The translations under genes and the position numbers were made by a program. Positions 4,101 through 46,000 of a stretch of 64,000 nucleotides of DNA are shown here, in pieces. The notes beneath the pieces are model-generated. The model worked only from the letters and a program-made list of their open reading frames with translations, searched no databases and had not been told where the DNA came from. This DNA is from Owenia fusiformis (lineage: Eukaryota > Annelida > Polychaeta > Sabellida > Oweniidae). Where the stretch lies: the NCBI GenBank assembly GCA_903813345.2, contig CAIIXF020000010.1:12777181-12841180 (forward strand), in the 5' to 3' direction. The first letter of the stretch is position 1; each line of letters opens with the position of its first letter.

Positions 4101-4717
4101 CAACTTTCTAACGAGACACATGGTTCCCATTCTGAGGATTCCATAGCCACTCCAGACCATGCTGAGACTGGAGGAAACCAATACATTGATTCTACAAGAG
4201 ATCAGGATCAAATAATGGACTTACAAACAACAAACATGAAAATCACGGACCCTGTTGCTATAGCAACCAAACCGGGGACACAAAAGGTGGCACCACCTAT
4301 TCCAAGACCCAGGACATCTCTTTTGAAGCCAGTGACTCCTGTAAAACCTGATTTGAAACCAAAACCAGATTTAAAACAGCCGAAACCAGTGGCATTTCCC
4401 AAACCACAAGTGAATATTAAACCACAACTGAAGACCTTACCAACTAAATCAGAAAATCAACCTATATCTCTAAGAGGAGAGAAGGATATATCATCACTCT
4501 ACACAAAGGATAAAACTGCATCTCAATTTAAAATTCCATCTCCAAAATTCAAGACTAAACTTTATTCTAATAAAAGAACACCTACAGAGCCCTTCCAAGT
4601 GAACATCTTGAAGAGCATTCTGGGATTGGGGGTTACCATAGCAACTAATGACAATGGAGATGCCATAGTGACAAAACTTGACCCCAGAGGGCCAGCAACT
4701 AAAAACAGCAATATTAA
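1158..4717 (+). CDS. Giant exon A: half PDZ plus disordered linker plus start of second PDZ
   Basis: The acceptor CAG is at 1155-1157 and the donor GTGAGT starts at 4718. The exon begins in the middle of a PDZ domain (KVLASGVCSRYKDIQPGVRL, the conserved asymmetric Gly-Val loop and GxRLLSIN strand). The next 1080 residues have no fold that I recognise. They are rich in Ser, Asp, Glu and Pro, with PPPPPRRGS (nt 2059-2088), a poly-proline cluster (nt 3100-3340) able to bind SH3, WW or EVH1 domains, and KPDLKPKPDLKQPKP (nt 4348-4392). The exon ends with the first strands of the next PDZ (ILGLGVTIATNDNGDAIVTK). Its phase 2 end fits the next exon exactly. Confidence 0.85.
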
Positions 4718-7700: not shown

Positions 7701-10700
7701 GTTACTGACAATATGCAACTTTTTTGGCTCTTTGGAAGGGGTCATGCCAAGACATCAAATATATGAGAATATACAATGTATGAGAATTTTAATCTTTGAG
7801 ATGTTCAGTGTAAAGATTTGACCCCCTTACCCACCACAATGTTCTTGCTGGCAACAATTTATATTTTGAGTTGGTCCCTCACCTTGGCCATTTGCTAGCA
7901 GATGTTTAGTCTTATTGCAACTCTAGAATACATCCATGCTTCATTTGTTCTTCAAATCACTTCCAGGTGTTCATGTCCAGTAGCAATTCTAATTGTAGAA
8001 TTCTTGGGGGTTGTATCAAATTTGACCTGGAGAGTATCATTGATAGGGGGAGAAATATGTTAAGTGTTTGTATAGCTACAAGCCCTTGTGACTCTCCCCC
8101 CTCACCACTATAACTCTGTGTGAGGTGTTTAGTCAAGTATAGGGGAGGGGGGGGGGGGGTCACAGAGGCTTGTAGCCAGACTAGTTAAGCATCTATGTAT
8201 ATTCAGTTATCATCCAAGGGCAATCAATTGAATGAGTTGAATTGAAAGAATCAAAGCACATCAGATACAACACCCAAAAAGCAAAATTGACATCCATGAA
8301 AGAGAATGAACAAATAGAACAAACCAAGATCAAAGAATAGGGTGGGGTGAAATTGAGACAATTAAACTAAATGTATAAACATATTGATCTGACCCCTATT
8401 CTAAAGAAACCAGCTGAAGATTCTCTGCTGAGATGTATCTGTCCAGAATTTAGGGCTTAATCAATGATGTTTTTACTAGCGAAGATTTGTTCTGTCATTG
8501 GATTAGCCGACTTATTTTTGTCTGTGCATAGAAAATAGTTTTTTGGGGTTTATATTGCCGCAATAAAATAAAAGGTCTTAGGGCCACAGTCTGTATTCTA
8601 TTATTGAGGATGATTATGGTCTATTTATTTCTTCTATAAAATCTGCATCTGTCCAGAATTTAGGGCTTAATCAATGATGGTTTTTATAAGTGAAGATTTG
8701 TTCTGTCATTAGGTTAACTGACTATTTTTTATTAGTGCATAGGAAATAGGTTTTTGGATCTATATTGCCTTAATAAAGGTCATATAGGGGCATAGCATGG
8801 GCTTTCATTTAGTCGAAAGCCCATGTTCATAGTCTGTATTCAAAAATTGAGAATGATAAGGATATATTACCTTCTTCCACAAAATAATGTTAGAAAGCAA
8901 AGTTTATGAATATACCCCTCCCCACCTCCCCCTTTAAAGCGATAATGTTCAAACTCAAATATAGCAAATATACAACTTTACACCTGTGTACTTTTACCAG
9001 ATAATAACTCTGTGATTGATTAATTTGAAAATATTGATAATTAGCTTCTGACCCATGTGGTCATTATCTTATTATCTTACAGTATTTCACTCTTGAGAAA
9101 AAAGTCTTTAATTACTTAAATAAATCTTTCAACTTACAAGTTGCATCTTCAAATAAGTGCTGAATTTGATATAAATATACCACCTTAAATCAATTTATAA
9201 TATTGTTTTTTAATCTGTTCCTCAATTTATTCACTCTTGTTGTCAGCTTTGGCTACTAATCACTCAACTAAAGTACATGTGTTTGTTTTTGATGATGTTA
9301 AATATTTATGGAAGTTAGCTCTGAATTAGTTTTTTTGGGGGGGAAGGGAGGGAGTGCCAGTAGTTTTTTCATAATGGAATATATTCTGCAAATCTGTTTG
9401 TCCTTAATTTTCTCCAGTTTAGGCTGCTTGTTATGATATTTGCCTGGGCTAACTTAGCTAATACATTCAGCATTGAATACATTTTTTGTTTTAAGGACCA
9501 CTTCTAGTTAAGTAAATATAAAGTGTTGTAATATATTATCCACTTAATTATGAAGTTCTATACTTATCCTATAGATGATCTTACTATAAGGCTAGACAGT
9601 ATGCCTTATATTACTTTTTCAATTTTCTTTGGTTTATTTATGATTATTGTGATAATATTAGTATTAAGAATTATGGAACATTTCTAAACAAGTATTAACC
9701 CGTAATCATTTAGATTTTATAACAGAGTTCAAATTAAGTTATTGATCTTACAGAAAGTTTTCTCATAAAGGAGAAAGATTGCATCATTTCATTGTCTCCT
9801 GTTAGAGAAAAAGCACAGAATGTTCATTGTTATTGCAGTTGTTTGTTGTTACTATGTGAATGTTATTAAAATGTAAATTAAATATATGTGCAGATACTTA
9901 AGTATTTTTATTTAATTTTTTCCTAGGTTTTTAATTTGCAAAAGTTCTGCCCAAATTCGAAAAAGTAAAAAGAATTCTACTTGAATACATGTATTTTACT
10001 TTGATAGTCTTCTGGAAGAGTGAAATGTGATGAATCACAAAACCAAACATATTAATAAAACTTAAATTACAATCAAAGCATGCACTTTGAGGTCAACATT
10101 CAAAATCGTGATACAATAATTCACACGCTCTAGAAATTAATTAGAAAATATCAGATTTTAAATCAATTTTACTTATTAATTAGAATTTGATAAATGTCCA
10201 TGATGCTCTTGACTTTGAACCTATGTTTGCATATTACCCCCTTAGGTTTGTCAATTTTTGACTTATGTATTTTAACCCCAAAATATATTTGGGCAATATT
10301 GTGTTTGTTTTACTATTGAGAGTTATTACCAACGCACTTGCACATGTGTATAGTGGGACAGCCCTCATATAGGCTCATCAAATATGGATTTTAAAATTAG
10401 GAATGCTAAATGATAGATAAGAGATTTAATGGTAGGCCTTAAATTATAATTTGTTTTTTTACATGGTGTACAATATCTGTTAGAATAACCACATTGTCTT
10501 TGTAGCAGGTTTTAAATCTAAGACCAATTTGTTTTTCCAGAGTTGGGGATTACGTTGTTTCTATCAATGGGACTGAACTAGGTGGACGAACAGACGCAGA
10601 AGTTCAGACAATATTGCAACGATTGCCCAGGGGGCTAATTAGATTCATCATTTCACTGTCGCCACCTGGTGGGCAAATGGGTGAGTTAACTTATGAAGTC

Positions 10701-13700
10701 ATTTTTAATTTAAAACGTAAATCTAGGATGAAGAGATTATCAATTTGAAAACTCTGATGCCAGGGTGACCTATCTCATTCTATGAATTATATGAATAGTA
10801 AATAACTGATTTATGTACTTTTTCATAATTGCTCAATTTTAAAAACAAAATAACATTTCACTCATTGGATGCACAGCTGACGTAAAAGGCTGATGTGTCA
10901 AATGGAAGAAAAAGAGAGATAAGGAGAGAGAGACAATGAGAGTAGGACAGGAGAGAGGAAGAGGGGAAGGGAGGGGGTGGAAGGAGGGATGGAGTAGAAC
11001 AAATTAAACATTACATATTAGTTCCGATATACATGTACAGAATTTTTAGGAAAGTGAAGGCAGTAGTGACAGGTAGCAAGGACTGACACAATGACATATA
11101 AATCCTGAAAGTTAATCTCCCTGGAGTCTTATTAAGACGTTGTTAACTTAATTCTTAAAGAGATTCATTTGTTGTCAGTAAAGCAAGCCACAACAACATA
11201 CTAGAATATTACCCTACAAATAGCATAGTCATTTGAGGGCTACAAAAAATTACCAAAATATACATGTGGTTGCTCATGAGTCAAAGATCCCAGGTCAAAG
11301 ATCAACAATTTAAAAATCTAATTTTGGGATAAAAATGATAAAATTGGCTTTCGATGAATTATAGCTATACATATTTGGATAAGGTCATGTTGGACTTGAA
11401 AAATTTATGGTTCTAAGAATCGCTATCAGATCTGGTTGATAGTTTACTAGAATTTCAAGTGCCTGAACTTCTATTTTGTGATTTAATGATGAAATATGAT
11501 ATAACGTGTCATGTATGTTATTTGTGATATAATTCCCTAAGTTAAGTTGACATGTATACTTTCTCTAATTTTCTTACATTGACACTCTCATGTAATCTCA
11601 CACGACATCACAATTTAAAATGTTCTATTTCATTAATGATTAGTTTCTAAAACAGTATGCATAACCTTAAGATAAATTTTAATTCAATATAATAGTACAA
11701 TAACGTCATTTTGAAGGGCAATATAGTAGAATATTGGACCGAGGGCCTGCAGAAATTACGTTATTGGTATTACCACCGTTAATGACCAGGTCTGAAACAG
11801 CAAGAAAATCTTACGCACTGAACGATATCTAATTTCCCGGGGAAAAAATTGCTGGTCGAGAATTGCATTCTTGACCGGTCAATATGGACCACCACTATGA
11901 CGTCACTTATTGCTCAGGTCGATATAGTAAAATGAATGCCTTCTAAACTAGCACTAAAGCCCCTAGAACTGGCCCGGCAAGGTGGTAATAATGTTTGTTA
12001 AAGTCAGTCTAAGGCAGTCTTGATGACTTTTCAGTGATTTATATAGTTGTTGAATAGAGGGTTGTTCACTTCGATTATCAAAGGTTAGGTACTTAACATA
12101 GGTAGGCAGTAGGTAGTTGACAGGGTAAAGTACATGTGTTAATCCAAGTTAGTTAAACACACATACATTGTACATTGTAAATGGCATTTTAATGTACTTT
12201 ATTTCATCAACATCCATTGTTTTGCATCCTTGTACATGTACATGTATATTGTATTGCATCTGAGTATACTGTATTGTATCCCAGTTTGTGATATTGCAGT
12301 GTATCTAAGTTACTTGTGTCCCTACTACCGGATTGGTTGACCAAGTCTAACATGATAATGCATTGGAGGAGGCATTACAATGGGGTATTATTAGAAGAAA
12401 TACACAAAATGACCCAGACAAACAAGATGTAAAAATGTAAATTTTTTCTTGTATCAACATAACTTGACAGTGGAATTTGTAATGATGTCATAATCTTCGA
12501 TATTTTAATGATTTTTTTATGAAGGCTTGGTGTGGAGTTATATTTTTGCTATACAATGTTATCACAGGCCATAGCTAGCTTTTACCAAGAAGGGGGCTGG
12601 TTTCACCAAGGGGGAGATTTTGCCAAAGGGGGAGGGAACTTTTTGACAGTTTTGGCTAAAATATCGTGCAAAAATTGCTCATAATGGTGAAAACTACATG
12701 ACATGATTTTGAAAGGGGAGGGGGGGCTCCGCTGGGCTTTTGTGTGCTATGCCCAACCCAATGTTGTCACCAGTGCCACCTGCCTACACTTATAAATCAT
12801 CCGCCCTGCTCTTCATCAGCCCTCACTCATTTTTTATAGCTATACATTTCCTAGCTGAGCCATAAATGCAATTAAATAATCAATTAAATTCAGGATAATT
12901 AGTAATGATAAAGAAGTTTAATTCGTCATCAACTGGACATTGTGTTAAGGTACTGAAATTTTTTCCTTTGATTTAGCTATTATATTTAAGTATTTCACTG
13001 TCTTACATAAACTTTTAATGTCTGTGCAACAGTTGGTGGGTTATTCATTGAGATTCTTTTGGAGAATATCTCATTTTTACTTTAATATAGAGGCTAATAA
13101 ATATATTTTAATGATACAAATTGAAATCACATGATTTTCTTCGGAACATACTGAATTAGAAGTCTGAAATAGGGATAGCAAATTGAATAAAAATATAAAT
13201 CCGATTTATTCTCATATATTTTTAAAGGTTAATGTTACGTTCATTATAATTATTCAATAATTTTCAATTAAACCGAAAAGCACTTTTGGTTACATATGTT
13301 TGAGCAATTAATGAGTTGAATTCAAAAGAAAGGAATCTGAATCTCTAAGGTTAGGAGTTATATTGAGCTAGTTAAGATCATGTTTTGCTGTCACTGTCTT
13401 CAAGTATGCCGACAAAAGATTTGGCCCTGGCGCCACCTACCTGATGGCACAGACCTCAGCACCATCTATAGGCTCTCTACCTCAAATATAATAGTGGATA
13501 ATGTTTCATATAAAAATGGATGTAATGACAGTGGTCAAACAAAAACTGGTAAGGATGCATTTACCTTTTCAAATATTTGGGAGAATTTAATGAAAACTAT
13601 AGAAAAATTCATATCTGCCAGTACAGGAGGTGTAATGTAAATTCTAGTTTTGTAAATTGTTTATATAGTGTAAGATCCCACTATCTCTCATATACCATAC

Positions 13701-22700: not shown

Positions 22701-25700
22701 TTGGTTAAGAATTAACATAAGGTAGTTCCAAGAGCCATTTCCTCCACCATGCAGGTTTTTACATTGAAAGGTTTCCCATGATTTTCTACTGGTTCAGTAA
22801 CTTGAAGTTAAACAAGCTTAGGTCAGTGTTGACTATGCACCCATATTTTACATGAGGTTCAACATGGGAGTGGAGAGATACATACACTATAGTCAGTTTT
22901 ATCAAGAACACATATTCTGAGTGTATACTGTTCTTATGCTTGAGACATAGTGTGGAAATGAAACCTTTAATGGATTATACAATAGGATAATTATGAACAC
23001 GAATGAAACAATAGAATCAATATAATGAATAGAATTCTTGAAAAATAAACAATACTATTTGAAGGCTAATCAATATGCATATAATGTATATGCAGTGTAT
23101 ACTGACATGGCTATAGTCAATAAAAGAAAAATTAATACTGAATGAATATTTTAAGATCCTCACATTTAGAGATGTGACAACTTCAAGCGATGTCAAAGAT
23201 AGAATCTTAGAATCATAAACTGAAAGGATACTTTGATTTATATAACATTGAAGGTCGCCAAATGGAATTGACCTTTGCTGTAGATATATGTAAGATGGAC
23301 CTAATACACAGACTTCAAGTGGACAATATTGATGCCCTTAACAACTGTGATAACACCAATGATACAACTGATACATCTTGTGACAACAATGCTATCATAT
23401 CTGTGGTATTTATGACTGACAGTTAACTCATCATATTACTTATCATAATCCAATATACATTCTCTTATCCAACTGTTTGACATTAACAGGAGTTGGTCAA
23501 AGTTAAGGTCAAATATCACTGAAAATTTGACACAAACAACTCGTATAGGAGTCAATATTAAGGTCAACGGGAAAAATAATTGACAGAAACAACTTCATAT
23601 GAGCAGGCATATATAAGTAATAATTCAAAGTTGATGTTGTAGTGAAACTAGAATTCAACTTGTTTCAGATTTAAGGTGACATTTAATGGGAGAATAAAGG
23701 TGTAGGATATGGTATGTGGAGTACCTAAGCTATAAACTTGCCAAGGACAACCTGCATTCACACTTCATATAAACTTTGCCAAAAAACACAAAGTCATCGC
23801 ATATTAATGCATAGGTCAGATGATTATGTGTTGACTTTTAATTACCAGGTATACAATTAACAAGGAGTTAATGTATGATAGATATTATTGTAAGAATCAT
23901 AAAGGAGGATTATATTTTGCCATATTTGGTCATATAAGGGATTAGTCATTATGAGTTGCTGTAGCTGCTTTGGTCGTAGGTCAAGTAAGTATCAAACATG
24001 AAGTGTTTAACTTAGGAAATACTTCACAAATATGTGATCATGTTATGTTAAGAGTTAGGTTTGCATACCAGAACATTCATAGGATATGGCATTAACATGC
24101 AAAATGTCACTACCTACCATTTGTTACAGATTCTGACCATCGAACACCAACCATCAAACACCAACTGCTACCCACTGTTTATTAAAAAAAGTTGGAGACT
24201 ATAAGAATGTGTCACTACTTTTGGCATTATTTTACCCCAAGTACCAATGAAGTCAAACAAAAAGGCAACCACCTTTTAAAAAAATTGAAATTTAAAAAAA
24301 CATTCATGTTTTGTACCGTCATGTTTTTCCAGATCCTAAAGAGGAGGAAACAGTGCCACCTATTGTTGAAAAAACTGCTGGTGATACATCAAAATTGGGG
24401 GCAACCAACCTGAGCTTCATCCCTGATGTGATACAAAAGAAACAGAATGGTTTAGATGTTAACAATGGAGAATTGAACAAAGAAAAGGAATCTTTACAGG
24501 AGATAGATCCAATTAAAAGCCCTGAGTTCGAACCTAAGCCTGTATCAGATATTAAAAGTGTACATGTAAATGGTAGCACAAAGGAGACCAGTGATACTTC
24601 AGAACCAATTGTTGCAGTGAATAGTGCCACAACAGCAGTTGAAATAGTTGATTTGAATGACATGAAAGATACACACAGAGAACAAGCCATTGATACAGTC
24701 TCAACTGAATCTAAAGCAGTAAATGGAAAAATAATTGAATCAGAGAATGCCAATGTGAAAATTATTCCTACACCAGGAAACGATTCTGCAACCTCAGACC
24801 CTGTTAAGATCACAAGGATGCAGTCTGAGACAAGTACCGATACGAGGTCTTCTACAAGCACCCCAAGCTTTCCAAGGTTGCCACCAGATGGCGATGAATT
24901 CCCAGAACATTACACAGATGGAGAAGGCCACATTGTTGTTCCAATTCTCAAACCTGGAGATGAGGATCTAATTATTAAAAATGTCAGTCTGAATAATGAT
25001 GCCCCACCTCTCCCATCATCTGTCCCCCCTCTACCAACAGGCCCCCCACCTCCTGTACCCCCTGTTGATGATAGCATAGGAGATGGCCCATCACCATCGG
25101 ACCTCAATGATATATCAACAACAGATGATGATACATCATTTGGTGAACTAGATAAGAAGGACACTATGAGTATTGATGCAATGGAGCTACTTTCACAATT
25201 TCATCCTAGCCTTTTAGACAGGTCCAAACCAGAGGAAACTGTCACTGAGGCTCCCCCTATGCAAATAGATACAATGGATACAAAGCTCAAAAATGGACTA
25301 TCAGATAAAAATGACAATAGAATCAAAGGTGAAGTAACATTAGATGTTAACCTAAACAAAACAGAAGTAACATCCTCCAATCTATCCAGTCCACCCGCCA
25401 AGGTTCTAAGTGCCTGGGAGTACCCGGCCCCAGCTCCCTCAAAAGAAGAACCAGTCGAAACAAATGGCCTTAAAGATGATGTTTTTGATAATCTACCAGC
25501 CCCCACCAAATCCAGCACATTACCAGTTTTATCTAAAGGAAAGCCTCCAAATTATGACTTGTATGGAGCCAGAAGTGAAAGAACTGCATCTCCAGCTGTA
25601 GAAGTGAATGGAACATGTGGTGACTCCATCAAGTCAGATTCTCCAGTGCCATCTATAACATCTCCTGGGAGATCATCCAGCATTGGTTCAGGATCTCTCA

Positions 25701-28700
25701 GTCTGTCCAGAGATGGGTCAGTCTCCCCTAATCTTGCATCAAGTAGTGAATTATCAAGGTGGCGTCGGGCAAGTGTTGACTCTGATAACGAGAGTGTCTC
25801 CTCAAGATCATCCAGTGGAAGTTCTAGGAGGTCATCATGGGCGCCACCTTTATTGAGCCAAAGTAAACAACGCCGACCATCATCCATTATTGAATCCATA
25901 AACGAACAGAAGAAAAGTGAAGGCTCCAAACTGAAGGGCCTCCAGGTGCCAGGATCTACCTCCTCTGCAAGGAGGGTTTCTACTGGGAAAGTTGCAGATA
26001 TGCCCAAATTAGGAGGAGTAAAAACCTTATTGCCACCATTGAAGAAAGACTTGGGTTCTATTCCTGTTAAATTTGATGCCAGTAGGAAGAGCCAAACATT
26101 ACCAATTAGACCTACGAGGCAAAGTTTGCCAGGTAATTTATCGTATAAACCATTCAGTCTGAAATCAACCACCACACCGTCGACTGGTGATATATCAGAG
26201 GAGGAAGTGTCACCAGCCAAACAAGGGAAAACTAAATCACCAGTTAGCATTCAAAAGACTCCACCAATAAAATCACCACGGCGACAGCCAGTATTCACTT
26301 CTCCAGATGTCACCAAGATAGAACCAAAAAATGAAATTGTAATTGACACTGGAACCCATACAATGCATCAGGAAACCCCTGAAAGTATAGCTCTTCCTGA
26401 TAGTTCCCCACCTGAATTGCCATCCTCTCCGCCAATATTACCAGCATCTCCTCGACCGACAGACGATTCTGTTATATTGAGGGTTGAGAAGAAGTCAGTA
26501 ACACTACAAGAAACACCACCAGACCTTCCATCCTCCATGCCAACTTTACCAGTCTCTTCACGACCTTCTGAAGATGATATCATAGTAACTTCTGACAAAA
26601 AATCATTCAAACTACCCCAGTCTTCACCACCAAAAATACCTGCAGACACTGAACCTATTGTTAGTAAATCTAGTCCTTTATTAAGTGCAACAAGACCACA
26701 GGTGTCCCTTAAGCATGAATGGGTCACAAAAACACCTGACACTGACGCTCCATCTATCCCGTCAAACACATACCCTGCTGTTGATAAACCTCTCAAAATT
26801 ACACCAGAGACATCCAACTCTACAGTTTATTCAAGCCAGATTAGTTCTCCTCGTAAGGTGACAGACAAACCAAATGTGAGCACCTTGGAAATAGGAGAGC
26901 CTACCTCTGTCAAGATCACCATCAACTCCCCAGCAAAAAGGACTCCATCACTAAATGTTGAATCATTACCAAGATCACCTGCTGCAGTTGAAGTTCATGA
27001 AGATACCGAGTCTTCAGATGATGATGATCTGCTTAATGAGATTGATGCATTGATGGCTAAAAGCCAAAAGAAGTCCCCTGTGTTTTCCTCATCAACTGTC
27101 GTCTCACTGGCTCCCACAATTCAGGGAAGAACAAAGCCACAGAATGTATATCCCCCTGTGGAGGCAAATCTTTCCCCATCTAAAGTTACAATTGGGAGAA
27201 CCCAACCCGATGCGCCATCTATCCCAGCAACAAAAATAAACATTCAGACTACATCTATAAAAACAGAAATCCTATCTGAAAAACCAGAGTCTAACTTTGA
27301 ACCTATTGCTATATCAGTTAACCCCACATCAATGAAAATACAATCAATAGACAATAAGCCAGAAGATACAAAGGTCAAACCTGTAGAAATCAAAGGACCC
27401 TTTGCAAATACAAAGGTCGAACCTGTAGATGAGCAAAACACTGCTCCTGTTCTGCCTCCATCACAGCCACCCAAACTGGTAGAACCTGAAACGAAAGTTG
27501 AACCAAAGACAGTGGAAGGACAAGAACCCTGTAATGAGAAAACTGCAGTTGAGAAATCTAAACTGACTGATACAGAAATATTTGATTCAAAACCATCCCG
27601 TCCCTCTGTTACCAGAGGTGCTATTGAGATGACCCACACTGATACAAATAGTACTTCATATTCTTCAAAATCCTTAACTCCAGAGACAAAATCCCGCACC
27701 AGTCGCTACAGCTCTGACAGTTCACCAAGTCGATATAACGCTGAATCGACAACTCCCGAAGTCCGACCTCGCTCCAGTCGTTATAGCTCTGACAGCTCGC
27801 CAAGTCGATACAGTGGAGGATCTTCGACCCAAGAAACCCGACCACGCTCAAGTCGCTATAGCTTTGACAGTTCAACGAGGGAACCATACTCCAGTAGAGC
27901 TGATAGGCTATCAACATCTAGGTATAGCAGTGATTCCTGGAGGACTGATAGGTTAACCACTAAGCCTGTTAGTGAGGATGCTCCATGTGGTAAAATACGT
28001 AAGTTTATGAACCTGTTATAAAAATTGAACATTCATCATTGTAAAACAGATATGTTTAACTTGTATAATGAGTGAGATAGCAATGCCCAAAGGCAACATT
28101 TCAACATACCAAACTCCTTGGTATGTTTGAAAGTACACAACAGAGTCAGGGTTATATTGTTTCGATCAATGCTCACTATACTGTATGTCATTGTCATCTC
28201 ATTATATTGAGTGTCATGTTTACATTTGGGGAAAACAAAATGTGTCTCCTTTGTATATATCCATACATTTATATATGGACAAAAAATAATTAACATTTTA
28301 CTGACCAGCACATATAATTTTTTGATTCCGTCCTGTTACAGTGAGCACAGAGCCTGATGGGACCAAGACAATAGAGATCACCAGGGGAGAGTATGGCCGT
28401 ACAGGGCTGGGCTTCAGCTTAGAGGGGGGCAAGGGATCAGCCTTGGGGGATAGACCTATGGCAGTAAAGAAACTTTTTAAAGGTGAGTTTGAAGGGAAGA
28501 AGTATAGAAGTATGATATTAGATGTTCAATAGTAAATAAATGAATGACAAGCTTCCAGATGCTGGTCCATTAACACGTGTTGATTTCTCGCACATATTGC
28601 CTTGGAAATCATTGATCAAAATGTTTCACATTAAACTGTAATGAGCAAATTTTTGAACCTAAGTATATATCATTTCATACACGATTAAACGTGGCAAAAC

Positions 28701-31604
28701 ATGATCATCAAAACTTTATTTTCATCACAGGAGATATTCACTCTATCGTTGGTGTTTAATTCTCTGGTGTGTCAATATTTCTGTAGATTTGTTCTGTTTC
28801 TATATTAACATTCACCACCTATCTTCTTGAACTAGGGGAGTGGATCACATTGAATGCAGATGTAAGTAACATTTACAGGACTAATGTCATAGTGTGATGT
28901 CATACAGATGTCGTGTGACATCATGTGGTATATTTAGTACTACTCTGTTTGGTCTTGTTTCCCTAGTTAAATATAATAAATATTAATAAAAGTTAAATAA
29001 AATAAATGATAATTTTTTATACAAAATAATCAATTACTAATAAGAAAATGAATAATAATTATGATTTAAGTAATTTTATTTATAAGTTCGCTTTCTATAC
29101 TGAACCATCGCTATTGAGATTATTTATCACTGTGTCCAGAAATGATTTCAGTTGTAGTGTCCATATTGTAACGAATCTGTGCTGTGTGTTAAGTGAGTTG
29201 TTGGCATGGTGTTGTCTTATTACTACTATTGTCATGCTGTATTTGATGCTTATTATTTTCTCATATTAAGAAAGTCCGAGAATGAAGTTTGCTAATCAAT
29301 TAACTTTTATATTTTACACATAGGCATTTTAATGTCAAATATGACAAGGTCTAAAAGTTGCAGCACAAGGCCCAACTTAATTTTTCCCTGTCAAGATGCC
29401 AGTCAGATTTTTTATTACACTTCACAAATTTCAAGAGTGCTATATTATAGGAGGTTACGTTGGTACATCTGTGAGGATGGGCAGTGTTGCAAAGCACCAC
29501 AAACATCTTTTTATTTATTTCCTAAGTCATATTACAATACATTTACTGGTATTTAATATTAAATCACATTTTTAATATTATAAAATGGGTTCAGAGTTAA
29601 TTTGCCAATTTTGGTGATATCATTTAGATATATCCTATATTCAAAATATCAACTTGTACCCTGTACTTGCAGCAGTTTGGATTGAGCAATTATAGTTTTG
29701 GTAATAACATTAAGTGTTAGCTATTTGCATGTCAGCTCATTTTTGCTTTATATTCACTTCTATTCAGAACTCTCTCAATAAATGCTCATTTTTAATCTCA
29801 ATTTTTGTGTTTTGGTCATCATCAAAAGCATAATACCAAGAAGTGCTTCATGGGTAATAATGCACAATGGAGGTTAAGAGCCAGCATGCTCCAAAGTATC
29901 GATGTTTTATTTGCTCCGATTCATCAGCCGGCGCTCGGGCGATTGAGCATTTTGTTCAAAATTGAATACAGTTTTGACCAGAATACTCAATCGGACTGGC
30001 ACCAGTTAATGAATCCGAGCAAATGTGATGTAGGCATTAGGACACTGAGTCATGTGGCACATTTTCCTCAATTGGGTCAGCCCTAATGTTTTGTGAATTG
30101 TGAAGTATATAGGAAAAGTGCATCCATGGTCATCTTTCACTTTTACTGCAGTCTCTCACATTTATCATTATTCCTTTTATCAGCCTCTTGCAAGAGAGAG
30201 AGCTCTAGAATAAAAAAGGAAATTCTATTATTATTACAACACTGTTAAAGAACAGAAATTTATGACGAGTATCAGATTGTAGTCATATTATTAATTGGAT
30301 AATTCAGACCTCAGATTTTAAGAATGGTCAATGTCTTCTTATTATACATACATGTATGTTATAATAATGCACATGTAGATTCAAATAATCTTTGCTTTTT
30401 TACTAAGATATCTTTCATTAACTAAATTATGGTAGATGTAATGCCTGATATATAAGTTTTTATAAGTTCAATTAAAAGGCTTTGAAGTTTTTTCTTGCAA
30501 TGGAAGCTCATGAGAAACCCATTTTGATTTTGATCCATCCAACTTTCTTTGCTGAGAACATACTCTTAATTAAGTATATTCCACAAAGTAACAGACCCCT
30601 ACAGGATCTTCTACACTTATGATTTGATAATACCATGAATACTTCAAATTATTATAGCATGATAACACTTATACTGTCTTATCACTTAGCCTATTTCTAA
30701 ATATTTGAAGTTATTTTTGCATTATAATTGAGCATCTGCCTGTTTGTGTTGTTGATCATCTTGTGTATCAATATGTTGATTTTTGTCATGTTTCAATTCA
30801 AATAAACACAAATGTTATATGGTTGTATTATACATTATATGGTTGTATTGTAAGTTATATGGTTGTGCTGTTTTGTATGCAAACTTGTGATCACCTGTTT
30901 TTGTTACCTTAGCTTCATAAAGTGTCATATTCATGAATTAAGATTATGTTTGAATTCTCATATTTGACAAAACAATTTCAACCTCATAACCTTACCTTTA
31001 TAATAAAAGATACATAAATTGAGCCATAAAATTTTGTGAATATTTTCAATTCTTAGATCATATGTCATACTAGTCTACCATCAAGCCCATGTTCATGAAT
31101 AGAAAACTATAAAACAAGAGAGGTTCTACATAATCTGTTAAGCTCCATGTATCAATTATGTAATTTCACAGGAGTTTTCGTTTGAATTGGTATGGATAAA
31201 GTTTCACATCCTAAAATGTTACTGTATGCAAAATGTCTTTGCTGCTTCTATGCACATCTACAGTATGAGTTTGATGTCGCGGTCGTTTTATAGATGCCCA
31301 AACGAATTTTTCTGGCTGTACAAAGCCCATAATGTACAGTATGTCACACTTGTGCAAAGAAGCAATAGAGTCTAGCAGCTAGAGTCTGGAGGATGTTACG
31401 GGACCTTCTGTTAATTACTTATATTATCTATATGTTCTAGGTGGTGTAGCAGAACAGAGTGGACTCCTACATGTGGGTGATGAAATATACTCTGTCAACG
31501 GAGAGGATTTCACTAACAAGAGCCATACGGAGGGCTGGAACTATCTGAAGACCTTAACCGAGGATAAAGTGAAGATCAGATTGAAGTCTATACTTGATTT
31601 ATAG
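1158..31604 (+). CDS. Pro-interleukin-16 / PDZD2-like multi-PDZ scaffold protein (5' end outside window)
   Basis: Coding exons are 1158-4717, 10541-10680, 24333-27998, 28342-28482 and 31441-31604. Phases agree at every junction and give 2556 residues plus a stop; the N-terminus is off the left edge. Visible parts (window numbering): second half of a PDZ domain (1-57), a long low-complexity Ser/Asp/Pro linker, a second PDZ (about 1145-1230) across the first junction, another 1200-residue disordered linker, and a terminal PDZ (about 2463-2556) containing GLGFSLEGGKGS, GDRP, FKGG and VGDEI. That last signature is nearly the one in mature IL-16 and the last PDZ of PDZD2. The Trp of the IL-16 EAWN motif, known to occlude the ligand groove, is kept here as EGWN. 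Likely an intracellular scaffold; cytokine-type processing is unproven. IL16 and PDZD2 are paralogues in vertebrates, so one ancestral-type gene is the safest reading. Confidence 0.85.
6961..7079. repeat. 119-bp imperfect hairpin
   Basis: ACACTACCCGCAAAAACTTG with CATTATTGAC pairs with the end (inverted ACACAACTCAAAAAACTTAC then ATTCTTGAC). The inner parts (CAGCTACCTGCGG and CCTGAGGTAGCC) pair as well. Confidence 0.6.
8072..8179. mobile_element. Small TIR element with a G-run (108 bp)
   Basis: ATAGCTACAAGCCCTTGTGA at the left mirrors TCACAGAGGCTTGTAGCCA at the right. A run of about 14 G precedes the right end. A related end (GGGGTCACAAGGGCTTGAAG) occurs at 33690-33715. Confidence 0.65.
8437..8900 (+). 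repeat. Tandem duplication, unit about 211 bp, second copy with hairpin insertion
   Basis: Copies start at 8438 and 8649 with TCTGTCCAGAATTTAGGGCT and TAATCAATGATG. The second copy carries an extra segment of about 40 bp whose core CATGGGCTTTC/GAAAGCCCATG (8796-8825) is a perfect 11-bp hairpin. Confidence 0.85.
10541..10680 (+). CDS. Exon completing the second PDZ domain
   Basis: The acceptor TTTTTCCAG ends at 10540 and the donor GTGAGT starts at 10681. Read in phase with the previous exon it gives VGDYVVSINGTELGGRTDAE, then QTILQRLPRGLIRFIISL. This is the GD-x-VxxING strand, the alpha-B helix and the last strand of a standard PDZ domain. It leaves one base (G), which fits the acceptor at 24333 and also a possible cassette exon at 13405. 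Confidence 0.85.
12562..12775 (+). repeat. Dispersed repeat with CATAGCCAG-type ends, copy 1
   Basis: It starts GGCCATAGCTAGCTTTTACC and holds CCAAGGGGGAGATTTTGCC, TTTTGGCTAAAAT and ATGATTTTGAAAGGGG. It ends near TGTGCTATGCCC. It is related to the copies at 43381-43570 and 62531-62765, all in the same orientation. Confidence 0.55.
13405..13548 (+). CDS. Possible phase-1 cassette exon of the PDZ gene
   Basis: An open stretch of 144 nt (48 codons) lies between a pyrimidine-rich acceptor (GCTGTCACTGTCTTCAAG, ending 13404) and a donor GTAAGG at 13549. It enters with one carried base and leaves with one, so it could be included between 10680 and 24333 without shifting the frame. The insert begins VCRQKIWPWRHLPDG and has no recognisable domain. 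Matching length and phase could be chance, so this is a candidate only. Confidence 0.35.
15671..16073. mobile_element. Inverted-repeat element (about 403 bp, about 65-bp arms)
   Basis: The left end TTAAAGGGGCAATGGACCAA is followed by TCAACATACTTTTTCAAA, TATTGACCTAATTTTCAC and AAAAAATGCAA. The right end holds the complement of each in reverse order (TTGCATTTTTGGTGAAAATG, GGTCAACATCTTTGAAAAAG, GTTGATGGGTTGATTGCTAG). Open frames inside are short and look accidental. Confidence 0.75.
16141..16875. mobile_element. 735-bp foldback element (near-complete palindrome)
   Basis: The outer ends TGGGTATCGATATGGCGAAC and (inverted) TTGGTATCGATATGGAGAAC pair, as do the inner blocks TTGGAACAAAACGACATAAA, AACATGTTTAGGTCTCTCAA and GTACAAAGGAA with their complements at 16562-16630. 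The arms run almost to the centre near 16510. No coding potential; it could fold into one very long hairpin if transcribed. Confidence 0.85.
17945..18082. mobile_element. Pogo/Tigger-like MITE, about 138 bp
   Basis: The left end ACAGTGAAACACCTCTAGAA with GTGGAACACCTC pairs with the inverted right end ACAGTAAAACCTGTCTAAGT then AGAACACAT. CAGTxAAACCTxTCTAAGTGGAACACC is close to ends of Tc1/mariner-pogo superfamily elements. A lone similar right end lies at 56875-56912. Confidence 0.6.
23920..23939 (+). promoter_or_regulatory. Two abutting CArG (SRF-type) boxes
   Basis: CCATATTTGG (23920-23929) is a perfect CC(A/T)6GG box. It is followed directly by TCATATAAGG (23930-23939), which differs from consensus at one position. 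They lie 12 bp before the ATG at 23951. Serum response factor and MADS relatives bind this motif. Binding here is inference, and in AT-rich DNA one box can occur by chance, but two abutting boxes next to a candidate first exon are less likely to be accidental. Confidence 0.45.
23951..23984 (+). CDS. Candidate alternative first exon encoding a cysteine-rich N-terminus
   Basis: ATG at 23951 (A at -3) opens MSCCSCFGRRS and runs into a perfect donor GTAAGT at 23985. It leaves one base (A), the phase needed by the acceptor at 24333, where the junction codon becomes AAT (Asn). The result would be an isoform of 1334 residues: this exon plus the exons at 24333, 28342 and 31441, carrying only the terminal PDZ. 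Cysteines right after the initiator Met followed by basic residues are the usual pattern for N-terminal palmitoylation (GAP-43, PSD-95). No acceptor is visible upstream, which suits a first exon. Mammalian IL16 also makes a shorter form from the 3' part of its gene. Confidence 0.55.
24333..27998 (+). CDS. Giant exon B: disordered linker of the PDZ protein
   Basis: The acceptor TTTTTCCAG ends at 24332 and the donor GTAAGT starts at 27999. It encodes 1222 residues rich in Ser, Pro, Thr, Asp and Glu with no recognised domain. Visible parts are a proline cluster (nt 24990-25065, LPSSVPPLPTGPPPPVPPV), several SSPP/LPSS repeats (nt 26390-26640), a short acidic patch (nt 27005-27030), and a C-terminal repeat region (nt about 27690-27940). 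In the repeat region RSSRYSSDSSPSRY recurs about three times with decay. Such Ser/Arg repeats are typical phosphorylation targets. Continuity of the frame over 3.6 kb and its agreement with both splice sites make coding status certain. Confidence 0.85.
28342..28482 (+). CDS. Exon with N-terminal half of the IL-16-type terminal PDZ
   Basis: The acceptor CTGTTACAG ends at 28341 and the donor GTGAGT starts at 28483. It encodes the stretch STEPDGTKTIEITRGEYGRT, then GLGFSLEGGKGSALGDRPMA and VKKLFKG. GLGF is the carboxylate-binding loop of the PDZ fold. The whole GLGFSLEGGKGS string and the following GDxP are shared with vertebrate IL-16 and with the last PDZ of PDZD2. Reading past the donor hits a stop within 20 codons, so splicing is required. 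Confidence 0.85.
28483..31440 (+). other. Intron splitting the terminal PDZ
   Basis: No exon seen. It contains an inverted-repeat element (29909-30024) and three decayed copies of a unit containing TATATGGTTGT near 30815-30870. Confidence 0.6.
29909..30024. repeat. Short inverted-repeat (MITE-like) element, 116 bp
   Basis: ATTTGCTC(C/G)GATTCAT opens the left arm, and its reverse complement closes the right arm. Arms of about 45 bp match imperfectly, through a CGATTGAG(C/T)ATT segment, around a 30-bp loop. GC content is above that of the surroundings. It is probably a miniature DNA transposon or a decayed hairpin element; no target duplication is clear. Confidence 0.6.
31441..31604 (+). CDS. 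Last coding exon: C-terminal half of the IL-16-type PDZ
   Basis: The acceptor TATGTTCTAG ends at 31440 and the stop TAG is at 31602-31604. It completes FKGG with VAEQSGLLHVGDEIYSVNG, then EDFTNKSHTEGWNYLKTL and VKIRLKSILDL. GGVAEQSGxxxxGDEI is the IL-16/PDZD2 pattern. The protein ends a few residues after the last PDZ strand, as in IL-16. Confidence 0.85.
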
Positions 31605-38807: not shown

Positions 38808-40267
38808 TTAATTCCCATGTTCTGCAACATCCCCATTGTTCTGGCCCTCGTTTTCTGTCAGATCCTCTGTGTCTGAAGCACTCTCACTGTCTGTATCAAG
38901 TCCATTGTGGAGCTGAGAGAGCTCTTGGAGGGAAAGACTTGTGGTTGAACTGATGGATGAGTCCAGAGCTATATCTCCTATCAGGATGTAATCTAACCCC
39001 TGAAAACAGAGAGGATTATTGTTTAACATGCATGTATAATAAAGGACATGAAGAGCAATTTAATATTTGTTTGTCTGCTTCAGTTGCAAGCATCAAGGAT
39101 TTTATGAGGCATAATCAAATGATGTCTACATGTAAAGACTTTCTTTTAAAGGTCAATGCCATTGCCATTACGTGTAAATAAATAAATCAAATCAATGACA
39201 TATTTTCTTTTCTCAGCTCATCTCAGTTATTACAGACACAATATCAAGTTTAATTCAAGTTCATTCTTAAGAGCTCACCAGGAATACAAAGGATGCTTAT
39301 TACTGAGTTTAATTAAATAAGATACCTAGCCTTGATTGTTTTGATTCATAAGTTGGTTTCTTTACAACATCCATAACCATCAGGGGTTGCCTTAAAAATG
39401 TGTGTTCTCCAAAACGTTGTACACGAACATAAAAAATAATTCACTGAAGAATCCATGAAAAACTTTAAACCTGAGAGACAAAGTGAGAACACCTCAAAAG
39501 TAAGGCAAAAACAACATAACTGGAGTATTTACCTTCCAGTGTTCTGGCCTATCTACCAATGCATTCTCCCTGAGGTCCAGCTTAGTGAGTCTTGAGAGGC
39601 CTAAGATCATGTCATCGTCTAAGTCCTTGATCTTATTGTTCCTCATGCTCAATGATATAAGACTATCTAAGTCTGTTAAACACAAAGGTATGGATTCAAA
39701 TATATTCCCATCCATATTCAAATACACTAAATTATTTAACTTCCCAAATGGTTTAGGAAGATCTTGAAGTCTATTATCCGCTAATGTTAACCACTGTAAT
39801 GTATGTAAATGACTAATTTCATCAGGTAAGAAACTTAATTCATTATTTCGAAGTCCTAGTTTTTCTAGATGCTTTAATAGACCGATCTCTTGTGGAAGAC
39901 TGACTAGTTGAGTATCAGAAAGCCATAGTTGTTTCAAATTATGGAGGTCTCCTATTTCAGATGGTATCACTCCTAGTGGATTGTGGCTAGCACTCAGATA
40001 TGATAGTAAATGGAGCTGGCCTATCCCAGAAGGCAACATTGTCAATTGATTGCTGTCGAGAGTTAATTCCTCAAGATTGGAAAGATTAACAAGCTCTTGA
40101 GGTGGCATTAATAATTTGTTATCGTTCAGCAGTAGTCTTTTAAGATGCCCAAGTTTTTGAATATCTGAAGGCAATATGGCAATTTCCCGATGACTCAGGT
40201 TTAAAACTTCTGATTGTTTGCCATTAAGATTGTCATTGATGCACTTGATAACCTCCTGGTCTCCCAT
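38808..40267 (-). CDS. Leucine-rich-repeat protein with acidic Ser/Asp tail
   Basis: Exon 1 is 40267-39533 and exon 2 is 38999-38808; the splice is phase 0 (PEHWK | GLDYIL). The protein has 308 residues. Residues 20-240 hold about nine typical 23-residue repeats of the short intracellular type (LxxLxLxxNxLxxLPxxIGxL), as in SHOC2, LRRC57 and plant Ras-group LRR proteins. There is no signal peptide and no membrane segment. The tail (about 260-308) is acidic and Ser-rich (DTDSESASDTEDLTENEG). Likely a cytoplasmic binding scaffold; I cannot name the orthologue. Upstream, a minus-strand acceptor (TTTTTCAG, exon from 40354) shows that the 5' UTR is spliced. The start at 40267 is the first ATG of the LRR frame. 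Confidence 0.85.
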
Positions 40268-41380
40268 TGCATTTGTATATCAATAGCTCTAGCTCTTTAT
40301 TCAAATAGTATTTTAGTTTCCTTCTGACTAATTTAGGTCCTAGTATCAGCTTTCCTGAAAAAGTAATTCAAACATCAGAATTAACATTATGTGAGTAAAT
40401 CTATTTCCTAATCAGACTATAACTCCAATGTCTCCAATGAATTAAAATTCGAAGCAAACGCGTGACATACAGTGTACATGTATATACGGATGAAAATTCC
40501 GAACGCACTGCATTATTGTTTCTCAGCATTTGTTCTTTTTATGTTTTCTCGTGAAAAAAATGCTTTTTGCGTGACATACATTTATTCTGTCATGCAAAAA
40601 ACGAGCATGACTTCAATTTCTTCAGCAAATATGCAAACTGCAGGACAGTTGGACAGCCTGCAAAGTGCAAACATGACTTCAAAATCACCAATAATTTGAG
40701 TGTCATTGTTTTCCTCCAAGTTAAAGATCTATTCTCATGATTCTGAATTGAATAGATCTAGGCTAAAGAATCAATTGAAATTTCAATTCAAGAATATGAA
40801 GAAATTGAAAATAATTTTAGAAAAAAGTTATACATTGAAATCATGTCAGTTAGGCTAGTCTATACATTGAATTTCAAACTGGCATACGATGCATCTAAAG
40901 CCATATTGATTCAATGTAAATATACACCAAACTTACATCAAATAAACCCATATCCTTGGAATAAAGACGAAATTCATGAGGTTGTCAAGTACGCCGAATC
41001 CATTTTGAATTTAGCAGCGCCATCTGTCAAAACATTGGGTCAAGGTCACAAAAACCGCGAAAAACAAAAATGACAACAAATATCGAAAACAGTTTAATTT
41101 CAGCGTCAGCGTAAGTATAATCAACAACTTTTATGTAGATTAAAATCAGGGAATCATCGAACATAATTAGTTATATGTGTATAACTGTATAGAATGTGTG
41201 AAATCGGATCCACATGAGGTCTGCAAAAGATGCATCATATTTTCAAAATCAAAGGATTTTCAGATGATCATTCATTGAATGATGATGGATCATTGATTTG
41301 AATCACAGAAAGTTGTAATTGTGCAGGTTTATCGGGTGCCAGTACAATATCACCGAATAAGTACAAGCCCATCCAAAGTT

Positions 41381-43021: not shown

Positions 43022-46000
43022 ATCAGATAGTAAAAAAAATACCGACTTGGGGAAGGCTAGCCAATGGGTCAATGAAGGAAACTGGTATTATTTTCAGTTT
43101 ACTAAAGGAAAACAAGAAGCGTTCATTGGGTATTGAGAAAAAGCGAGACAGTGCCCTGAATGAAGAGAACAGTAACGTTGCTGTACAGTTTGCTCAATGC
43201 AAGGTAAGCTTTTGTGTAGCAAATGAATAATGGAAGTGTCACCACTAGCTTTCTTACCATGTCATATTCCCAAACTGGCATCAAACAATGCAGCATTCAG
43301 GAACTATTTATTCTGAACATGGATGCTCTGCATCTGTTAATTTGAAGTAAATTATTAATATAAAATGGTATACGAACTACAGGCCCATAGCCAGGATTTA
43401 CCAAGGGAGGTCACTTTTTAAAAAATTCCAGGGGGTTCACTTTTGACAACTCTGGCCCAAAAAGGGTCAAAATCTCTTGAAAAACTGCATGATTTTGAAA
43501 GAATTTTTGGCTACTCAACCCCCCAACCCCCCCCCCCCCCCCTTACCTTGGCTATGGGGCTACTGGCCTTAGCTACATGGCGCGCTCCCAGATATGAGGT
43601 GCAAGTAGTAACTGTCTATGATGTGCACAAAGATGGTTCACAGTGAACTATTAAGTGTGCCAAAAGTTATAGATATCCTGTATGTTCTGAGTTGTGGGTA
43701 GGTGGGTATGAGGTAGGAGGTTTTTTATACAAAGCCGAAAAATTGTTATAATCCTGTAGGTGCTAACTATACATGTATTTGTAGGCTGATTTTAAAGAGT
43801 TGAAGCAAAAATTGATCCAGTTACAAACAAAGTTCCATTTTGTGAAGAGTCTAGCTACAGATGAAGAAACAACAATAGATGAAGAAAGATTAGGTGAGTG
43901 TTCTCTCATTCCTTCAACTAAATACAATGTATGTCCATGTATAAATATTCAAAGCTCAATAATCTTCAAAATAGGAAGTGAACTGTCATGTATTTTGCTG
44001 ATAAAGTCAGGGAGTTAAGAAATACTACATTGTATGGGCGGAAATTAACTCAACTTTATTAAAGGTGCATGCACCAAATTCCACACGCATTAGTGAAAGC
44101 TAGACTAGAACGGTAGCATAGAACCATTACATGAATCTCAACAGGGGTCTCATTGGCAGAAGGCAGAAGTCTATTTTTGAGGTGGTATTGATTAATATAT
44201 ATGTGCATATTGATCCATCAATGAAGTTCATATGACTGAAGGAATACAATGGTTTAACAGGATGATTCTTTTGGACTAGAAATGAATTTAAACTCACAAG
44301 CCAGATGTCATCATAGGCTGTGAGACTAACCTGGACAACACCATCGACAGCAAATGGATATTCGGTCAAGACTACCGTAGCCCACCTCCAAACAGGAAAG
44401 ACCGAAAGAAATGTGCTGGCGGTGTCCTTATCGCAGTCAAAAGTGACTTCATATCAGTCGAATATGAAGCGACAGCTGATTGCGAAATCATATGGTCCAA
44501 AGCATCTCTATCAAATGGGGACATACTGTTTGGATCCTTCTATCGTCAACCAAACAACGATACTGGTGCTTTGGACTCGCTCCAAACATCCCTCGATAAA
44601 CTTTATGCTAATGGTAATACACATATGAAAAACATCTTCCTATGTGGTGACTTCAACTTACCAGACATCGATTGGGAGAATGGAACTATAAGGCCTAATT
44701 CTCAATATTCTAATGATCTTAATGAGAAGATGATTACAATAACTGATGATCATGGCCTAACCCAACTAGTCAAGGAACCAACTAGACAAAATAACATCCT
44801 TGACTTAGTATTCACTACATGCCCAAACCTCGCAGAAAGAATCTCAGTGGTTCCGGGCATGAGTGATCACGAGGCAGTCCTATGTGATATAAACCTAAAA
44901 ATGAAAATTCAGAAAAAGAAGCCTCGTAAGGTCCACATATACAAGCGGGCAGAATGGACTGGACTTAAAGAGACTCTACGATCTAAGTTCAGCGAATTCA
45001 AAGAGAACTCTGAAAGTTGATCAGTTGAAGACAACTGGTCCTCCTTCAAATCCACATTAATATCGTCAATGAATGAGCATATTCCAAGTAAAACTCTAAG
45101 TGGGAAATTCAAAGTACCCTGGATTACCACCAGGATACTGAGAATGATCCGACAGAAACAAAGACGATATAATGTTGCCAAATGTTCAAATGAACCTCAT
45201 CATTGGCATAAATACAAATCACTACGGAAATTAATCCATAGTGAAATTCGTAAAGAACATCAGCGCTACATCAACGATCTGCTTGACATTGATGAAAGCG
45301 AAATCATAAATGAGAATGTTCAGCACAAAGGCATTACCAAACGCTTCTGGAGCTACATAAAGTCTAAACGCAAAGATGCATCAGGTATCAGCGTGCTGCG
45401 TAACAAAGATGGCGACGAAATAACAGACGCCGCCCAGAAAGCAAACATCCTCAATGACCAATACAATTCTGTATTCACAGATGAGGATGCCACTCTACCG
45501 ACAATGGTACCTAGTCAAATTCCTGAAATGCCAAATATCAAAATTTCTACAAAAGGAATTCACAAATTGCTAACTGGCCTAAATCCATCAAAAGCCACTG
45601 GACCCGATCTTATTCCGACTAGGGTCCTGAAGGAATGCAGTGACAGCATATCACCATTCCTTCAAATAATTTTTCAACAGTCTATCGATGAAGGCTTAGT
45701 GCCTATGGACTGGAAACATGCCAATGTTACTGCTATCTACAAAAAGGGACGAAGAGATGAGGCTGTGAATTACAGGCCTGTATCTCTGACGTCAGTTCCA
45801 TGTAAAATAATGGAACATATTATATTCCATCATGTTATGGCCCACTTTGACCTCTATGAAATTCTAGTAAAATTCCAACATGGATTCAGGTCAAAGCACT
45901 CATGTGAAACACAACTTGTCAATACAATAGAGAATATAGCTCGGGCCCTCGACAACAATAAACAAACAGACATGTTGGTATTAGACTTTTCCAAAGCGTT

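Follow-up and report, generated by a model that had tools for sequence, protein, structure and literature searches.

Positions 23951-23984 of the window, by which we mean the whole 64,000-nucleotide stretch of Owenia fusiformis DNA analysed here, have what we judge to be just short of an even chance of being the real coding first exon of a short transcript. This transcript would begin within the 13.65-kb intron of a multi-PDZ gene resembling IL-16 and PDZD2, and its donor at 23984 would join the common acceptor at 24333, leaving out all upstream PDZ exons and placing MSCCSCFGRRSN before a long, probably disordered linker and one IL-16-like PDZ domain. For a lipid-anchored product of this kind, the fit of 23951-23984 appears to be better than chance expectation.

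The host gene resembles IL-16 and PDZD2

The plus strand of the window holds the 3' part of a multi-PDZ gene, whose exons are given below together with the candidate first exon and its splice site.

1158 to 4717, plus strand: long-form exon with the end of one PDZ domain and the start of the PDZ domain completed by 10541-10680; its acceptor was placed by eye
10541 to 10680, plus strand: upstream PDZ exon of the long form, with a phase-1 donor GTGAGT at 10681
23951 to 23984, plus strand: candidate alternative first exon, encoding MSCCSCFGRRS plus one base, phase 1
23985 to 23990, plus strand: 5' splice site GTAAGT, preceded by CAA
24333 to 27998, plus strand: large common exon with a linker and proline- and serine-rich stretches; acceptor TTTTTCCAG at 24324-24332
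28342 to 28482, plus strand: exon with the first half of the terminal IL-16-like PDZ domain
31441 to 31604, plus strand: last coding exon, with the second half of the terminal PDZ domain; stop codon TAG at 31602-31604

The PDZ domain at the start of exon 1158-4717 is partial and weak (21.5 bits, under the Pfam cut-off of 23.2), the domain across the join 4717/10541 scores 36.6 bits, and the terminal domain formed by 28342-28482 and 31441-31604 scores 52.1 bits. The best single-stretch PDB matches of this terminal domain are the IL-16 chains 5fb8 and 1i16 (65.6 and 65.3 bits), with five DLG4 chains and one InaD-like chain ranking above them on two or three summed stretches. We assigned the gene to the IL-16/PDZD2-like class on two features, namely a C-terminal PDZ domain that is closest to IL-16 by its best single-stretch match and the presence of several further PDZ domains upstream. 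A small home-made profile picked up same-strand PDZ matches in two regions ahead of the window (about -29365 to -20575 and about -3221 to -1542), and their strand and order suggest that they belong to the same gene. The long form therefore very probably starts off-window with other PDZ domains, as the original prediction had supposed. The linker of exon 24333-27998 has no Pfam match up to an E-value of 1, and among viral contigs 30 stretches fit the pattern of the terminal PDZ domain but none was confirmed as a relative.

Elsewhere in the window, reverse-transcriptase-like open frames split over three ORFs at 44292-47073 belong to what we take, from a FADD motif, to be a LINE-type element. By eye, the minus strand carries a leucine-rich-repeat-like open frame of 261 codons at 39494-40279 and, at 51891-53669, a single long open frame (592 codons), rich in cysteine, that includes a transmembrane-like segment and ends in a basic tail.

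Anatomy and predicted product of the candidate exon

The original description of the candidate as a 34-nt open exon reading MSCCSCFGRRS can be followed letter by letter: the start codon is ATG 23951-23953 with A at -3, the frame is open throughout 23951-23984, and the exon ends in GTAAGT in the phase required by the acceptor at 24333. Read on without splicing, the frame from 23951 reaches a stop at 24001. On generic weights, which underlie all splice-site scores given here, the donor at 23985 scores 4.93, compared with 2.03-8.04 for the four donors of the gene assigned in the window, and U1 pairing at donor 23984 is -7.5 kcal/mol, compared with -5.7, -10.4 and -10.7 for three other donors. The predicted junction 23984/24333 is in phase 1 and creates an AAT (Asn) codon; donor 10680 competes for the same acceptor in the same phase, with GAT (Asp) as its junction codon. 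At the sequence level, the candidate has the form of a small coding first exon whose phase suits the common downstream acceptor. Its GC content is 47%, compared with 32% for the intron, and the stretch 23900-24020 has a single match, itself, in its own 498-Mb genome (525 contigs, with the match on contig C10), and is not a repeat. Between the candidate donor and the acceptor at 24333 lies an interspersed repeat fragment (24064-24228), for which at least 39 further copies with 77-91% identity were found among 2298 candidates.

Joining 23951-23984 to 24333-27998, 28342-28482 and 31441-31604 gives a predicted product of 1334 residues with one PDZ domain, the terminal one; here the spliced translation and the PDB match agree with the length and the single IL-16-like domain originally proposed. 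Cysteines occur at residues 3, 4 and 6 and next only at 440, so that the first ten residues hold three of them, where membership in a lipid-anchored class asks for at least two. The rule used here for a palmitoylated N-terminus is cysteines near the start followed by basic residues. There is no glycine at position 2 and therefore no myristoylation signal. Under the proposed mechanism, a DHHC enzyme would S-acylate Cys3, Cys4 and Cys6, which are followed by Arg-Arg, as in PSD-95-alpha, and this acylation would hold the short form at membranes, with the long form depending on its other PDZ domains instead.

Other ways of using the same letters were considered. The stretch could lie in a cassette exon within the gene, such as the 39-nt stretch 23946-23984, and so insert a Cys-rich peptide into the long form; by eye such an exon would have phase 1 on both sides and a frame open from 23946. 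Its acceptor, however, scores -7.5, compared with -0.26 to 4.55 for the four acceptors assigned in the gene, and has 8 pyrimidines in 18 positions where those have 12-13, and the alternative acceptor at 23939 scores -2.41 and is out of phase. We rejected the cassette exon on its acceptor and regard it as very improbable. An exon starting at 23980 (acceptor score 3.22) was also rejected, since by eye the stretch from GTAAGT 23985 to the in-frame stop at 24095 contains no further GTRAG donor. A short form starting at an internal ATG of exon 24333 was set aside as well, its first in-frame ATG, at 24662, lying behind seven out-of-frame ATGs.

Chance expectation for the candidate exon

A serious alternative to a real first exon is chance, in which an ATG in the intron happens to be followed by a short open frame containing cysteine codons and by a GTAAGT that is never used, and only the long form is made, by splicing from 10680 or another exon to 24333. 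We would give this alternative somewhat less than half of our belief. Much of the arrangement is easily obtained at random: an ATG, an open frame of at most 60 codons and a GTAAGT in phase 1 were found together in 61% of 3000 simulated introns (order-3 Markov, as long as the real one), and the ATG, donor and phase alone are therefore not above chance. The cysteine cluster behaves differently, as the same set with at least three cysteines in the first ten residues arose in just 10 of 3000 order-3 introns; when at least three had to fall within the first eight residues, 2 of 4000 order-2 and 4 of 3000 order-4 introns qualified. Because it is so rare in simulated introns, the cluster exceeds chance, although all of these chance tests were post hoc and picked once the sequence was known, and such a choice of features after the fact favours the chance reading.

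Genome-wide counts point both ways. The motif MxCCxCF occurs at 66 sites in the 498-Mb genome, compared with 50 in a reversed control, and 23951 stands alone among the 66 in having GTAAGT or GTGAGT within its open frame; it is also alone in having a canonical CArG box at most 200 bases upstream. Four other sites have GTAAGA or GTGAGA. By contrast, ATGNNNTGYTGY followed by GTAAGT within 30 bases is not enriched (194 occurrences compared with 202 in the reversed control, counted over the whole genome on both strands with frame ignored and repeats included). Most MxCC...GTAAGT places are therefore noise, in line with the chance reading. Codon use leans the same way, since the 34-nt exon shows no coding-like usage: it scores -0.32 per codon, below the intron average, and 75% of the 147 ATG-open 11-codon stretches in the intron score at least as high, on a measure whose training exons contain few cysteine codons.

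CArG boxes ahead of the candidate exon

Two abutting CArG boxes were originally placed directly upstream of the exon. The first of these is canonical, and the second is one base off CC(A/T)6GG, which is the CArG consensus according to PMC7925694.

23920 to 23929, unstranded: canonical CArG box, CCATATTTGG
23930 to 23939, unstranded: CArG-like box, TCATATAAGG, with one mismatch to CC(A/T)6GG

A canonical CArG box, the mark of an SRF target promoter used here, is therefore found at 23920-23929 and not at 23930-23939. Across the 498-Mb genome, the box-pair pattern CCWWWWWWGGTCWWWWWWGG was counted 38 times, compared with 10 times in the reversed control. Canonical boxes number 24 over 204 kb, and five of them lie in the 13,652-base intron (at 17555, 20470, 21654, 22964 and 23920, four of the five within 3.5 kb), where simulations gave means of 1.17 and 1.23 and probabilities of five or more of 0.0065 and 0.0077. 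This excess would suit an intronic SRF enhancer unrelated to any exon at 23951, as would the observation, in PMC7925694, that SRF also binds distal intragenic places. However, the 204 kb contain just one canonical box that abuts a near-box, and it sits right at ATG 23951. An enhancer unrelated to the exon strikes us as unlikely and is compatible with the other readings; more generally, an enhancer role for the boxes would be an equally good reading.

Whether the boxes could serve a promoter of the candidate exon turns on their spacing. They lie 12-31 bases ahead of ATG 23951, with almost no space for a start site in between. At the usual promoter spacing the start site would be at or beyond the ATG, and if the leader begins upstream of the boxes, they would fall inside it. 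The boxes and the ATG therefore do not appear to reinforce each other. By eye, we saw no well-placed, coherent core promoter near 23951, which again favours chance over a real first exon.

A second candidate first exon in the same intron

The intron contains a second candidate, absent from the original prediction, that shares its strand and phase with 23951-23984 and that can be read in two ways.

13380 to 13548, plus strand: second in-phase candidate first exon, MFCCHCLQVCRQKIWPWRHLPDGTDLSTIYRLSTSNIIVDNVSYKNGCNDSGQTKT (beginning MFCCHCLQVCRQK), with A at -3 and donor GTAAGG preceded by CTG
13405 to 13548, plus strand: rival internal cassette exon of 144 nt, flanked by phase 1 at either end, with acceptor TTTTGCTGTCACTGTCTTCAAG

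The intron yielded six in-phase ATG-open stretches that run for at most 60 codons to a GTRAG or GTATGT donor, and two of these six, 23951-23984 and 13380-13548, start with MxCCxC. A mechanical listing over 204 kb, on both strands and in all phases with coding exons included, gave 573 candidates with GTRAG donors. Only three of these start with MxCCxC: the two from the intron and a third that is antisense and lies upstream of the window. Of the simulated introns, 2 of 6000 and 2 of 4000 had an MxCCxC candidate, and none had two. Under a looser rule (three cysteines in eight residues and a GTRAG donor), the sets of 6000 and 4000 simulated introns included 33 and 22 with at least one candidate, and 1 and 0, respectively, with two. 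Bare MxCCxC occurs 1670 times in the genome, compared with 460 in the reversed control, a count inflated by a tandem array on contig C1, and by arithmetic this amounts to about 0.02 per intron strand. The stretch 13300-13660 is single-copy, with one match in the genome, itself. Having two MxCCxC candidates in one intron speaks against the chance reading of 23951-23984 and appears to be the best support for a real pattern, to which it adds some weight.

The cysteine codons at 13380 are, however, also a polypyrimidine tract before CAAG, and 13405-13548 or 13453-13548 may therefore be a cassette exon. We see it as an even call whether 13405-13548 is simply a 144-nt cassette exon used in the long form, in which case MFCCHC would be no more than the exon's polypyrimidine tract translated as TTY and TGY codons. 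Such an exon has phase 1 at either end, a pyrimidine-rich TTTTGCTGTCACTGTCTTC ahead of AAG, a donor score of 6.53 at 13548 and an acceptor score of 0.09 at 13405, compared with -0.26 to 4.55 for the four acceptors assigned in the gene. An acceptor at 13453 scores better (2.9) and gives an in-frame 96-nt exon, the sole cassette in the intron above the scoring thresholds. Weighing against the 144-nt cassette are the unfavourable A at acceptor -3, a codon score for 13407-13547 of only +0.09 per codon, which antisense open stretches of the intron surpass, the lack of any Pfam family at an E-value of 0.01 or below (best 0.1), and the lack of any relative besides itself at an E-value below 0.8 in the PDB or its own genome.

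Taken furthest, the first-exon reading of both candidates would give one intron with two alternative first exons, 13380-13548 and 23951-23984, that each place an MxCCxC lipid anchor on one and the same IL-16-like module at the C-terminus, with SRF controlling the second exon, as a DLG2-like membrane-anchored set that arose in another PDZ gene family. We consider this full picture unlikely. If the lipid-anchored short form is real, even without this full picture, promoter switching would tether an IL-16-like module to the inner side of a membrane, IL-16-type PDZ proteins could have been membrane scaffolds in non-vertebrate animals, and lipidated first exons could have arisen more than once in PDZ genes.

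Comparison with known PDZ proteins

Palmitoylated DLG forms keep three PDZ domains, unlike the predicted product, which would keep only the last. DLG2 further differs from the candidate in being a MAGUK with SH3 and GK domains, and both palmitoylation and transcripts have been reported for it, whereas the candidate is known here from sequence alone. The peptide MSCCSCFG has no mention in the open-licence full texts searched, and no lipidated IL-16 isoforms or invertebrate PDZD2/IL-16 proteins were found in the one open-licence library searched, judged partly by titles. Palmitoylated alternative first exons are known, and their combination with an IL-16-like gene was found nowhere in the open-licence literature searched.

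According to PMC6389146, DLG2 uses alternative promoters and has several kinds of first exon, among them palmitoylated alpha exons and L27 exons, and it also has a shorter isoform with SH3 and GK domains only. The palmitoylated residues of PSD-95-alpha are Cys3 and Cys5, and two N-terminal splice variants of multi-PDZ proteins, GRIP1b and GRIP2b (pABP-L), are palmitoylated as well (PMC6365469). Like DLG2/PSD-93, PSD-95-alpha and SAP97-alpha, the candidate would combine a PDZ scaffold with a separate first exon and a cysteine pair near the N-terminus (PMC6389146, PMC6365469), and like DLG2, with its alpha0, alpha1 and alpha2 exons, the gene would have more than one Cys-bearing first exon, with two candidates here (PMC6389146 for DLG2). 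GRIP1b and GRIP2b have 19 or 18 alternative N-terminal residues and seven PDZ domains, and truncation to one PDZ domain is not described in the passages of PMC6365469 consulted.

Mammalian IL16, for its part, gives rise to a precursor of 631 residues and to the longer NIL-16 of neurons, which carries two additional N-terminal PDZ domains (PMC12171437). The gene in the window resembles it in having a terminal PDZ domain like that of IL-16 and, putatively, a short and a longer form; unlike the putative N-terminus of the candidate, a lipidated one is not mentioned for mammalian IL16 in the passages of PMC12171437 consulted. The original parallel with pro-IL-16 is a loose one for the 631-residue protein, and DLG2, PSD-95 and GRIP1, whose alternative N-termini are palmitoylated, offer closer parallels (PMC6389146, PMC6365469). 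Overall, it is plausible but unproven that the candidate would work like the members of the DLG2/PSD-95/GRIP group and would do so from within an IL16-like gene.
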